Shown: positions 4,274-6,963 of the stretch, in pieces | Position numbering within the stretch: position 1 is the stretch's first letter | Layout: the number at the start of each line of letters is the position of its first letter | Source of the DNA: Candidatus Obscuribacterales bacterium | Lineage (GTDB): Bacteria; Cyanobacteriota; Vampirovibrionia; Obscuribacterales; Obscuribacteraceae | Reading direction: 5' to 3' | Assembly: GCA_020054205.1 (NCBI GenBank) | Contig: JAGVLS010000020.1 | Coordinates: forward strand, 157,223-221,222 | Length of the DNA: 64,000 nucleotides | Position numbers and translations under genes: made by a program | Notes under the pieces: generated by a model | What the model was told of the DNA's origin: nothing | Seen by the model: only the letters and a program-made list of their open reading frames with translations | Databases searched by the model: none

Positions 4274-4402
4274 ATGAAGAAGAAGGCTAAACGTACAGCC
4301 AAGAAAGCAGCTCCTAAAAAGGCTGCAAAGAAAAAAGCAGCTAAGAGACCTGCTAAAAAATCTACTAAGAAATCAACTGCTAAGAAGAAAAAATCAAGGT
4401 AG
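4274..4402 (+). CDS. Lysine-rich histone-H1-like DNA-binding protein, 42 aa
   Basis: This 42-residue ORF has a strong ribosome-binding site (AGGAGGAAC) eight to ten bases before its ATG and a strong terminator just after it. It contains 20 lysines and 3 arginines, otherwise Ala, Thr, Ser and Pro, in repeats such as KKAAPKKAAKK and PAKKSTKKST. This resembles the C-terminal tail of eukaryotic histone H1 and bacterial H1-like proteins (Hc1/HctB, AlgP type). Such proteins bind and compact DNA through unstructured basic tails. No globular domain is present. The role in nucleoid compaction is inferred from composition only. Confidence 0.8.
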   Translation: MKKKAKRTAKKAAPKKAAKKKAAKRPAKKSTKKSTAKKKKSR

Positions 4403-4425
4403 TTGGCGAGTAGGACTGTCATACA

Positions 4426-4460
4426 AAAAGACTCAAACAATTTGTTTGAGTCTTTTTTTT
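4426..4460 (+). terminator. Rho-independent terminator
   Basis: AAAAGACTCAAACAA pairs with TTGTTTGAGTCTTTT and runs straight into a T-tract, 24 bases after the stop codon of the lysine-rich gene. This is the clearest terminator in this part of the window. Confidence 0.9.
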
Positions 4461-4796
4461 TAGTATTCTCTGCACGTATTTATGTATATATTCCTCAGCT
4501 AAATCTGTTAGTGTCCGATAAAGATCAAAGATTTGTTTGCTATTTAATCTATATCTCCCTTTAGTATTTCAACTCCAATAAAACTTCTTTTGCCTACATA
4601 TATATAGGTACATATAAACAGTATCAATTGACAACCTGTTGTTTTAGAATTTAACCTTTTTATTACGAACAAGGTTGCTTCCCTTAAATTAAGTGGTTTA
4701 GGATTGCAATTCTGTATCTTTATTAGGGATGTCATATGACTCTCTCATAAAGATTTTCCTGTTAGTTAACTAGTTAGAAAAATTAGGAGATCTAAA
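4461..4796. other. Leader/promoter region of the repeat-peptide operon
   Basis: These 336 bases hold no gene that I can support. The sequence is A/T-rich; a TTGACA near 4627 has no well-spaced -10 box, so I do not call a promoter. TAGTTAACTA near 4770 is a short palindrome. AGGAGA precedes the next start codon by six bases. The promoter of the peptide/MNIO operon must lie in this stretch, since a strong terminator ends the previous transcript. Confidence 0.5.
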
Positions 4797-5114
4797 ATGA
4801 CAAAAACACAATTGGCAGCAGCATTAGTTGCAGCATTAGGAATTGGTTTCAATGCGCCAGTATTTGCTGAAGATGCAAGCACAAGCAGCGAAACAACTGC
4901 TACTGAAACCACTACCAAAGTGAAAAAACATAAGCACAAAGATAATTGCAAGAAAGAAGAGTCTTGCAAAGGTAAAGAAGGATCTTGCAAAGGTAAAGAA
5001 GGATCTTGCAAAGGTAAAGAAGGATCTTGCAAAGGTAAAGAAGGATCTTGCAAAGGCAAAGAAGGATCTTGCAAAGGTAAAGAAGGATCCTGCAAAGGTA
5101 AAGAAAGTAACTAG
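4797..5114 (+). CDS. Exported Cys-repeat peptide; probable MNIO-modified RiPP precursor (bufferin-like)
   Basis: A 105-residue precursor. Residues 1-24 form a typical signal peptide ending APVFA. A Ser/Thr/Glu-rich spacer and a basic KKHKHK segment follow. From residue 51 there are eight cysteines: one in NCKKE, then seven in a strict seven-residue repeat CKGKEGS (Cys 57, 64, 71, 78, 85, 92, 99). The gene is directly followed by DUF692 and DUF2063 genes. In known bufferin loci this trio encodes an exported Cys-containing peptide whose cysteines are oxidatively modified by the DUF692 enzyme and which sequesters copper. Known bufferins carry EGKCG-like motifs; EGSCK here is a close variant. Role as a metal-binding RiPP is inferred from context, export and Cys/His/Lys content. 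The ATG has AGGAGA six bases upstream. Confidence 0.85.
   Translation: MTKTQLAAALVAALGIGFNAPVFAEDASTSSETTATETTTKVKKHKHKDNCKKEESCKGKEGSCKGKEGSCKGKEGSCKGKEGSCKGKEGSCKGKEGSCKGKESN
4962..5105 (+). repeat. Seven tandem 21-bp coding repeats
   Basis: Seven head-to-tail units encode SCKGKEG; the last is shortened by its SN ending. Units are nearly identical at DNA level. The differences seen, GGC for GGT in unit 5 and TCC for TCT in unit 7, are silent. This fits recent expansion plus selection on the peptide. Confidence 0.95.
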
Positions 5115-5140
5115 GATAAACCTGGATAACTTTCCTAGTT
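5109..5140 (+). promoter_or_regulatory. Intercistronic hairpin between precursor and MNIO gene
   Basis: AACTAGGA and TCCTAGTT pair across a 16-base loop. The left arm contains the precursor's stop codon, and the right arm ends before the MNIO start. No T-run follows, so it is more likely a partial attenuator or mRNA-stability element that favours precursor over enzyme expression. Confidence 0.45.
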
Positions 5141-5162
5141 GATTCTAACTTCTGGGCAAAAA

Positions 5163-6128
5163 ATGACTTGTTTTATTGATATCAAAAAAAAGTTACCTCT
5201 CTTGGGCGTAGGAATTGGTCTAAGAAGAGAAATTGCTCAGGATATTTTTGCCAATGACGGCAAAATTGATTGGTTAGAATTTACGCCAGAAAACTACATG
5301 GGATTAGGGGGAATGGCAAGAGAGCGTCTAGAACATGCTCATTCTTGCTTTCCCCTCTTGTCTCATGGAATAAATTTGTCTATTGGTGCAACTGATGATT
5401 TAAATGAAGACTATTTATATTCATTGAAAGTGCTCTTAGATAAGTTTGAGATACCTTGGTGGAGTGATCACTTATGCTTTACTTCATATGAAGGTATTTA
5501 TATGCATGATTTATTGCCATTGCCTTTTTCAAAAGAGGCAGTCAATCATGTCGTAAAACGTATAAAGCAGGCGCAAAACTTTATTGAAAGACCATTTCTC
5601 ATAGAAAACATTTCTTATTACATGCAAATGCCAATGAGTAGTTTGACTGAAGCTCAGTTTTTGTCTGAAGTGCTAGAAGGAGCTGATTGTGGTTTGCTGT
5701 TGGATATTAATAATGTTTATGTGAATTCTATTAATCATAGTTTTGATCCATATAAGTTTTTAGATCAAATTCCATTGGAGAGAACCGCACAAATTCATAT
5801 TGCTGGACATAAAAAAATTGATGATTATGTGATTGATACTCACGGGGCTGCTGTTAGTGAACCTGTATTTGATCTTTTACGTTATGTTTTGCAAAAAACA
5901 ACAGTAAATGCTGTTTTACTTGAACGTGATCAAAATTTTCCAGAATTTGAAGAATTGATGAATGAACTCAATGCAATTCAAATGATTTGTCAGGCTAATA
6001 ATAAAAATTTTGCTAATTTGAAAGAAAAAGCAAATGTGTCTAAATCTAACATAGCAAAAGTGCCAGAAAAAGATTTCTCTTCAATAAATGTAAAAGGGGG
6101 AAGAGATGTCCGAGCCCTCTCTGCGTGA
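5163..6128 (+). CDS. DUF692 multinuclear non-heme iron oxidative enzyme (MNIO; MbnB/TglH/BufB family)
   Basis: A 321-residue TIM-barrel enzyme that starts like other DUF692 proteins (LLGVGIGLRREIAQDI). Expected metal ligands are all visible: His68 (SHGI), His103 (SDHL), Glu148 (ENIS), Asp181/Asn183 (DINNVYVN), His212 and His216 (HIAGH), Asp225/His227 (DTHG) and Glu254 (LERD). The family uses a multi-iron centre and oxygen to remodel cysteines in precursor peptides, as in methanobactin, 3-thiaglutamate and bufferin synthesis. The probable substrate is the Cys-repeat peptide encoded 49 bases upstream. I prefer the ATG at 5163 over a TTG at 5139, since the latter lies on the hairpin arm; neither has a strong ribosome-binding site. 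The last 40-odd residues form a charged tail. It overlaps the next gene by 23 bases. Confidence 0.92.
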   Translation: MTCFIDIKKKLPLLGVGIGLRREIAQDIFANDGKIDWLEFTPENYMGLGGMARERLEHAHSCFPLLSHGINLSIGATDDLNEDYLYSLKVLLDKFEIPWWSDHLCFTSYEGIYMHDLLPLPFSKEAVNHVVKRIKQAQNFIERPFLIENISYYMQMPMSSLTEAQFLSEVLEGADCGLLLDINNVYVNSINHSFDPYKFLDQIPLERTAQIHIAGHKKIDDYVIDTHGAAVSEPVFDLLRYVLQKTTVNAVLLERDQNFPEFEELMNELNAIQMICQANNKNFANLKEKANVSKSNIAKVPEKDFSSINVKGGRDVRALSA

Positions 6129-6963
6129 TATAGAAAAAGCATTATCCACTCTTTGGATGAATCGTGATGTGCGCAATTGGTATTTAAGTGGTGCTAAGCG
6201 TGATCAAATGCCTAATGAGGGGAAATCACTGTCGAGATCTGTATTGGATACTTTGGATAAACGTGGGGTAGAACTCTATGGTAGCTTGCTCAGCTTTGGG
6301 CATCACGATGTCATGCTTTCTGTGTTTCCTTATTGTGCTCAAATTTTAGAGAAAAAATGGGATGAAATAGTTGATGATTATCTTAAATGCTTCCCCCCAG
6401 AACACTATAATTTCAATCGTCTTTGTTCACGTTTTCCAGAATATATGGCTATCAAAAAAGATTCTTTTGGTAAAAAAGGACAACTCTTAAGTGAGTTGAG
6501 TGACTTTGAATGGTTGGAGCTTGAAAAAATTGAGCAAGATATAAAAATCACGAGTCTTCCTTATGAATCACTTAAAGATCCTAGTCAGTTTGTTGAATGG
6601 GCGCCTGTATTAAATCCAAGCATCATGGTTAGGAAATATAATTATCCTCTTTTTGAGATAATTGAAAGGTTGCAGGAAAAAGGAAAATTACCTGCTAAAT
6701 TACCTGTAGAAACAACATATATAGCGTTTTATCGTCATCCATTGAGAAATACTTGTTGTTATTTTCAATTAGACAGGTTGGCTTTATTACTTGTGGAAAA
6801 ATGCCAAGCTGATAAATTGTCTTATCAAGATTTGCTAATTGCTTATATATCAGCAAGAAATGATATTTTGCCTACGCAAGCTGCAGAAGAATTTTTGTAC
6901 GCTATTGATGAATTACAAGAAAGCCAAGTATATATTGGATCTCTTAGCTGCAAATCGAGTTAG
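6106..6963 (+). CDS. DUF2063-type partner of the MNIO enzyme (BufC/MbnC-like)
   Basis: A 285-residue protein with a helical N-terminal domain carrying patterns typical of DUF2063/MbnC-like partners: SRFPEYM near residue 110 and LSDFEWLELE near 130. The partner binds the precursor leader or core and is required by many MNIO enzymes. AGGGGGAAG precedes the ATG at close spacing, and the start lies inside the MNIO gene, so the two are translationally coupled and probably made in equal amounts. The C-terminal half has no motif I recognise. It converges with aat, overlapping its end by four bases. No copper exporter or DoxX gene, present in some bufferin operons, follows. Confidence 0.82.
   Translation: MSEPSLRDIEKALSTLWMNRDVRNWYLSGAKRDQMPNEGKSLSRSVLDTLDKRGVELYGSLLSFGHHDVMLSVFPYCAQILEKKWDEIVDDYLKCFPPEHYNFNRLCSRFPEYMAIKKDSFGKKGQLLSELSDFEWLELEKIEQDIKITSLPYESLKDPSQFVEWAPVLNPSIMVRKYNYPLFEIIERLQEKGKLPAKLPVETTYIAFYRHPLRNTCCYFQLDRLALLLVEKCQADKLSYQDLLIAYISARNDILPTQAAEEFLYAIDELQESQVYIGSLSCKSS

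Follow-up and report, generated by a model that had tools for sequence, protein, structure and literature searches.

What is made by a small operon in a Candidatus Obscuribacterales bacterium that sets a cysteine-rich repeat peptide beside a peptide-modifying enzyme? The operon was found in a 64,000-nt stretch of DNA, here called the window (GenBank assembly GCA_020054205.1, contig JAGVLS010000020.1, positions 157,223 to 221,222, forward strand), from a 3.3 Mb genome whose named relatives are Candidatus Melainabacteria. Its three genes, at 4797-6963 of the window, encode in order a precursor peptide, an MNIO (DUF692) enzyme and a DUF2063 partner. We consider it probable that they make a ribosomally synthesized and post-translationally modified peptide (RiPP) of the captophorin type, in which the repeat cysteines would be converted to 5-thiooxazoles and the exported peptide would buffer a Cu(I)-like metal. 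We infer the chemistry, the number of modified sites and the metal.

The operon belongs to the MNIO/DUF2063 group

A preliminary description, made from the DNA letters alone, had recorded an exported eight-cysteine repeat peptide, a DUF692 enzyme and an overlapping DUF2063 gene. These assignments hold: the coordinates are right, and the enzyme and its partner match PF05114 (338.7 bits, 2.7e-101; cut-off 25) and PF09836 (29.8 bits; cut-off 27.2), respectively. The gene order precursor-MNIO-DUF2063, which is that of captophorins, recurs in relatives throughout the taxonomic order. The MNIO is the only one in the source genome, and its relatives of solved structure are 3BWW (215 bits), TglHI and MbnB. 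The profile of the partner weakly matches N. gonorrhoeae 3DEE (NGO1945; E 0.0076), and its AlphaFold2 model (predicted local distance difference test score, pLDDT, 94.9) finds its best Foldseek match in 8hi7_A, a chain of the TglHI holoenzyme (E 9.6e-7, template modelling score 0.65). The fold match and the 3DEE match together indicate an MNIO with a PME1-type partner.

The profiles, the 3BWW homology and the fold match thus support the earlier suggestion of a bufferin-like RiPP operon, in the sense of an MNIO/DUF2063 pair of the bufferin/oxazolin kind. The same description had extended the DUF2063 pairing to methanobactin, and this was mistaken, as MbnB has no nearby PME1/DUF2063 gene (PMC12668002). 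The operon is of the captophorin type, to which bufferins and oxazolin belong, and not of the methanobactin type. Methanobactin (MbnABC) has in common with it the MNIO superfamily, the modification of cysteine and the copper theme, whereas MbnB falls in a different MNIO clade; the MbnB model TIGR04159 gives the window enzyme 51.9 bits against a cut-off of 325.

The top-scoring NCBIfam model for the MNIO is HvfB (NF003818; 311.2 bits, cut-off 360), and the BufB model (NF050167) gives 301.7 bits (cut-off 310); both models match all 28 relatives tested. Residues H68, H103, E148, N184, H212, H216, D225, H227, E254 and D256 are invariant among these relatives, as are Q257 and R21, and R22 is nearly so. 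The ten residues named first are candidates for the iron-site and catalytic residues. Loss of any of N175, D242 and H244 abolishes the activity of HvfB (PMC13419390). These appear to correspond to N184, D225 and H227 of the window enzyme, the last two by alignment and N184 by a presumptive match.

The precursor fits none of the described classes

All eight cysteines of the precursor (residues 51, 57, 64, 71, 78, 85, 92 and 99) are followed by Lys, and seven of them lie within SCKGKE. The coding array is the top array of the window in Tandem Repeats Finder (7.3 copies of 21 bp, 96% matches, score 278), and the peptide contains six exact matches to CKGKEGxCK. Three precursor classes have been published: DUF2282, Lys-Cys (EGKCG) and Cys-Lys (BufA2) (PMC12668002). 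By its sequence the window precursor is none of these. No DUF2282 (BufA1) match was found in Pfam or NCBIfam; the BufA2 model NF050166 gives 10 bits against a cut-off of 60, and the eight cysteines stand in a uniform repeat and not in the 6/12-Cys pattern; and the motif is EGSCK, with Lys after every Cys, not the EGKCG of oxazolin/HvfA precursors. No NCBIfam family scored above its cut-off, and PHROGs gave no match. The beta-helix fold proposed for EGKCG proteins was also considered for this peptide and was rejected, as its AlphaFold2 model has no fold (mean pLDDT 46, predicted disordered).

The operon nevertheless shares features with each of the known systems. Like oxazolin, fontiphorin and gonophorin (HvfABC, FonABC, NgoABC), it places a Sec-exported repeat precursor before an MNIO and a DUF2063 protein. 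It resembles the EGKCG captophorins in having Glu at -3, often Gly at -2, and both N-terminal Arg residues of the MNIO, but differs in Ser at -1 and Lys at +1, in its 7-residue unit, in the predicted disorder of the precursor, in the residue that follows the ERD aspartate (Gln, not Phe), and in scoring below the HvfB and HvfC cut-offs. Bufferin 2 (BufA2, the Cys-Lys captophorins, Buf_6/12Cys) likewise has Cys followed by Lys-Gly, Sec export and an MNIO with DUF2063. However, BufA2 has 6 or 12 fixed cysteines without Glu at -3, whereas the window type is a uniform repeat of variable copy number, and BufA2 MNIOs branch elsewhere in the tree, mostly lose the Arg equivalent to FonB-Arg16 and often have EWD instead of ERD. 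BufA2-like operons occur in the order as well (L136, L139, L140, L143). Bufferin 1 (BufA1, DUF2282; Caulobacter sigF regulon) is again an exported precursor in an MNIO/DUF2063 operon, but with four cysteines in place of repeats; the window promoter, moreover, is not similar to those of extracytoplasmic function (ECF) sigma factors.

Homologous precursors 5' of the MNIO orthologue in relatives carry 2 to 9 cysteines, mostly in [E/D]x[S/A]CKGK repeats, and 24 relatives keep both the signal MxKxQLAAALVAxLG and [ED]xSCKGK repeats. Among the 154 cysteines of the clade precursors, Lys stands at +1 of 147, Glu or Asp at -3 of 143 and Ser at -1 of 124. Of the order's 53 genomes, 33 contain the exact coding pattern for CKGKEGxCK. 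In a phylum sample of 386 genomes it was met in the window's own genome and in none of the other 385, and it was absent from viral contigs. The earlier claim of a distinct precursor class in this lineage is therefore supported, since the peptide matches no family model and the motif is confined, as far as tested, to the order. A literature search by titles and abstracts gave no MNIO link for EGSCK/SCKGK-type strings, although the supplements of PMC12668002 and PMC12452194 may list such motifs. Hundreds of small exported open reading frames (ORFs) with 1-18 Cys before MNIO genes have been tabulated without classification (PMC12452194, Table S2), and the window precursor may already be among them. 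Those ORFs were not grouped into families, whereas for the group treated here we define the family along with its motif, promoter and distribution. Low-complexity repeats may be spurious, and the precursor could in principle be a functionless ORF beside an unrelated enzyme. A reading frame, signal, repeat motif, promoter and gene order conserved across many genera contradict such an artefact, which we find barely conceivable.

A dedicated promoter and the joint absence of repeats and maturases

The promoter block before the precursor gene (Table 1) combines a TTAC repeat at 11-bp spacing with a TTAAW element and a TAGGAT that resembles a -10 box. Alignment of 30 upstream regions gave the consensus TTTWAC-N6-ATWAC-N17-TTAAW-N10-TASNAT, which in most relatives lies 64-117 nt before the precursor start. 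Exact matches occur exactly once each in 25 of the 53 genomes, and the reversed control gave none. The block is the sole match in the window even when two mismatches are allowed, is absent from 100 shuffles and is the sole exact match in its own genome. The TTAC repeat, at this spacing, is reminiscent of OmpR/PhoB-type regulator sites and may point to such a regulator.

The gene 3' of the block in the 25 genomes is a Cys-Lys (CK) precursor in 21 and a Cys-less homologue in two; in the other two the contig ends before the gene can be read. The Cys-less peptides (G003, locus L213; G014, locus L216) have the same signal and Lys/Thr/Glu linker, and their loci have neither MNIO nor DUF2063; tlyA, on the opposite strand, follows directly. 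At L033, tlyA lies beyond MNIO-DUF2063-YceI. Neither genome contains the CKGKEGxCK motif, and both have MNIOs elsewhere with other precursors. The joint absence of repeats and maturases argues for their coupling and is what one would expect were the repeats the MNIO substrate, although two cases are few. The Cys-less homologues are possibly relics, or possibly reflect a second role for a Lys/Thr/Glu-rich exported peptide.

This coupling bears on whether the cysteines might act unmodified, in a metallothionein-like manner, while the MNIO serves another substrate. The preliminary description had looked to homologous loci without the peptide as evidence against its reading, and such loci do exist: a recognisable precursor is wanting near a minority of related MNIOs (L015/L036, L037, L117, L118), and some CKGKEGS precursors lie far from any MNIO. 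However, the precursor stands directly 5' of the MNIO in 29 clade members, in the two genomes above the cysteine repeats and both maturases are absent together from loci that keep promoter and leader, and bufferins too have stand-alone precursors (PMC12452194). We regard a metallothionein-like role as quite improbable.

A terminator-like hairpin lies between the promoter block and a Lys-rich gene further upstream, on the 3' side of that gene, which suggests that the operon is a separate transcription unit. The gene encodes a tiny Lys/Ala-rich histone H1-like protein (MKKKAKRTAKKAAPKK...), and the hairpin 3' of it is strong; the operon of L034 likewise has a Lys/Ala-rich gene nearby. A second hairpin, between precursor and MNIO, was considered as an expression valve and dropped, as it folds no better than shuffles (z -1.0).

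Table 1 Features of the operon and its surroundings (window coordinates unless a locus is named).
Feature	Position	Strand	Basis or remark
Lys/Ala-rich histone H1-like gene	4274-4402		
Terminator-like hairpin followed by a T-run	4425-4457	+	15-pair stem; pattern match only
Promoter block TTTAAC-N6-ATTAC-N17-TTAAA-N10-TAGGAT	4650-4704	+	Upstream comparison; ends 92 nt before precursor ATG
Precursor peptide, 105 aa: Sec-type signal, Lys/Thr/Glu/His linker, cysteine repeats	4797-5114	+	ORF
Sec-type signal of precursor	about 4797-4868	+	Signal-like N-terminus MTKTQLAAALVAALGIGFNAPVFA, then ED
First precursor Cys (NCKK)	4947-4949		Just 5' of tandem array
Tandem array of 21-bp units coding CKGKEGS, seven SCKGKE cysteines	4953-5105	+	Tandem Repeats Finder
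MNIO (DUF692) maturase, 321 aa from ATG	5163-6128	+	PF05114; alternative TTG start at 5139
DUF2063 (HvfC/PME1-type) partner, 285 aa	6106-6963	+	PF09836; 23-nt overlap with MNIO
Promoter block of Cys-less homologue	L213 369-423		ORF just downstream
Promoter block of Cys-less homologue	L216 402-456		ORF just downstream

Residues that may read the EGSCK motif

In FonB, Arg15 and Arg16 adjoin the substrate Glu, and Phe250, which follows the catalytic Asp249, contacts the residues around the Cys; Cys-Lys enzymes have Asp at the Phe250 position, and FonBC left substrates unprocessed when a charged residue followed the Cys, NACKG included (PMC12668002). Alignment to FonB places Arg21/Arg22, Asp256 and Gln257 at the corresponding positions of the window enzyme. 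We compared these residues with the precursors at the 89 loci whose precursor could be classified. Gln stands at the Gln257 position in each of the 29 clade enzymes that accompany CK precursors, and all 29 have Arg or Lys at the R22 (FonB R16) position. Arg at the latter position is mostly lost in BufA2/DUF2282 enzymes, and Phe at the Gln257 position was found with xCG precursors only (11/11). The residue pattern fits a hybrid recognition code, with Glu at -3 as in EGKCG and Cys-Lys as in BufA2. With just two changes of Gln on the tree, the association of Gln257 with Cys-Lys is explained equally well by common descent. Statistical proof of covariation was attempted and abandoned, as there are too few independent changes for an independent-pairs test to reach significance.

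Proposed maturation and function

The proposed pathway is built on what the sequences offer: the gene set, the exported precursor, the conserved repeat, the enzyme residues, the promoter block and the joint absence at two loci. The precursor would be made with its Sec signal and delivered in the cytoplasm to the MNIO by the DUF2063 partner. Recognition of the repeat might involve contact of Glu at -3 with Arg21/Arg22, and Gln257, in place of the Phe seen in EGKCG enzymes, might allow Lys at +1. The iron cluster of the MNIO would then oxidise the [E/D]xSCKGK cysteines, with 5-thiooxazoles as the most likely product, a change of -4 Da per modified Cys and perhaps up to seven or eight sites per chain. 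The disordered, Lys/Glu-rich multi-thiol peptide would be exported and would act in the periplasm as a buffer of Cu(I) or possibly a similar soft metal. Every MNIO/DUF2063 pair so far characterised forms 5-thiooxazole, and the products bind Cu (PMC12668002).

Since Lys follows Cys, the same enzyme pair might instead perform another chemistry, such as oxazolone/thioamide formation or oxidation at a neighbouring residue. The rejection of charged +1 residues by FonBC, the several different reactions catalysed by the MNIO family and the scores below the NCBI cut-offs of both HvfB and BufB all speak for this. The window MNIO nevertheless belongs to the MNIO/DUF2063 group, in which 5-thiooxazole is the product of every characterised member, a Cys-Lys class (BufA2) exists in the same group, and the catalytic residues are all kept. 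A different reaction therefore seems unlikely to us.

Several points weigh against 5-thiooxazole formation and metal buffering. The main caution is that, given the rejection of a charged +1 residue by FonBC, homology does not warrant assuming the chemistry on SCK; 5-thiooxazole formation at this motif is an extrapolation. Essentially a single clade underlies the Gln257/Cys-Lys association, and L025, with a Gln enzyme beside an xCG precursor, is a counter-example. No copper gene adjoining the operon was identified, nor does the operon contain a DoxX gene by ORF list and Pfam, another difference from EGKCG captophorins. To these are added the MNIOs that stand without a recognisable precursor and a stress-gene arrangement, described below, that is absent from the window genome.

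Stand-alone precursors and a possible envelope-stress cluster

CKGKEG arrays far from any MNIO were found at nine loci, eight of which have recognisable precursor ORFs, with up to 14 CKG units. Genes for MsrAB (PMSR + SelR), an ECF sigma factor and a zf-HC2 anti-sigma factor accompany eight of the nine (L177, L178, L179, L180, L181, L183, L184, L185; the exception is L182). The upstream regions of the stand-alone precursors have GGAATAAA in common, with a CGTTT/CGGTTT element further down. This ECF-type motif (GGGAATAAA...CGTTT) is absent from the window operon and from the window genome, as is the MsrAB/ECF arrangement. The link to oxidative or metal stress therefore holds for the relatives and is only suggestive for the window. 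In Caulobacter, the ECF regulon of sigF controls DUF692/DUF2063/DUF2282 operons under heavy-metal stress (PMC3511200), and this ECF control of bufferin 1 parallels the stand-alone precursors. At L125, an MNIO and a mixed xCG/CK precursor cluster with genes for DUF1223, zf-HC2 anti-sigma, ECF sigma and MsrAB. An MsrAB query gave no match in viral contigs.

The system might on this account be mainly an oxidative-stress device, in which modified or plain thiols form a sacrificial redox buffer of the envelope and metal binding is incidental. The lipoprotein-like MsrAB and sigma/anti-sigma genes beside the stand-alone CKGKEGS precursors favour such a role, as does the company of the MNIO at L125. 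Heavy metals including copper also damage envelope proteins, however, so the Msr link fits both readings; the window promoter block is different and non-ECF-like, and its genome has no such arrangement. We think it rather doubtful that redox buffering is the main role.

We put forward a wider proposal tentatively. The precursors may form a fourth captophorin class, in which a Glu(-3)-x-Ser-Cys-Lys code would be read by double-Arg/Gln257 MNIOs and expression would run from a dedicated promoter. Amplified stand-alone copies (up to 14 repeats) in the MsrAB/ECF envelope-stress cluster would be matured in trans by the operon enzymes; the products would be metal or redox buffers with many sites, evolving through changes in repeat number. 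Such a class would extend captophorins to a non-photosynthetic order of the cyanobacterial group, and its precursor would break the published FonBC substrate rule of no charged residue after Cys. The natural Phe-to-Gln enzyme variant offers a means of probing the determinants of Cys selectivity. The number of modified cysteines required, and their purpose, could well be studied in relatives with 2 to 14 repeats, in the stand-alone copies of the stress-sigma cluster and at the joint-absence loci.

Other precursor and MNIO arrangements in the order

A second precursor of the CGKGSCGTDEKGA type, which stands in tandem with the CK precursor in many relatives, was absent from the window genome (best E 0.38). 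In relatives, a second exported peptide with a CGKGSCGTDEKGAKAA-type motif and two to a few Cys stands in tandem 5' of the CK precursor (L004, L006, L009, L012, L013, L014, L017, L018, L028, L033-L035); it was likewise absent from the window genome. The MNIO-DUF2063 pair of L015/L036, with no recognisable precursor upstream, is close to that of the window (64%), and a complete CK operon is present in the same genome (G004).

Single proteins of 807-850 aa at L126 (1406-3895), L127 (2922-5471) and L132 (2936-5356) join MNIO, DUF2063 and a C-terminal methyltransferase-like region, with Pfam support in L126 and L127; no precursor was recognised near these fusions. At the start of L026 and at L114, frames of PPEQRCKGRPPVERCNSNPPERTCKG or ETPSTRCKVEIPGNKCK repeats stand 5' of MNIO-DUF2063 fusion genes and are cut by contig ends; they are possibly another CK precursor type. 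A distant MNIO group (L146-L151; 32-36%) mostly lies 3' of genes for membrane-like proteins of about 300 aa ending in CGGGCGG runs. We take these proteins to be candidates for resemblance to the TIGR04222 proteins described with MNIOs.

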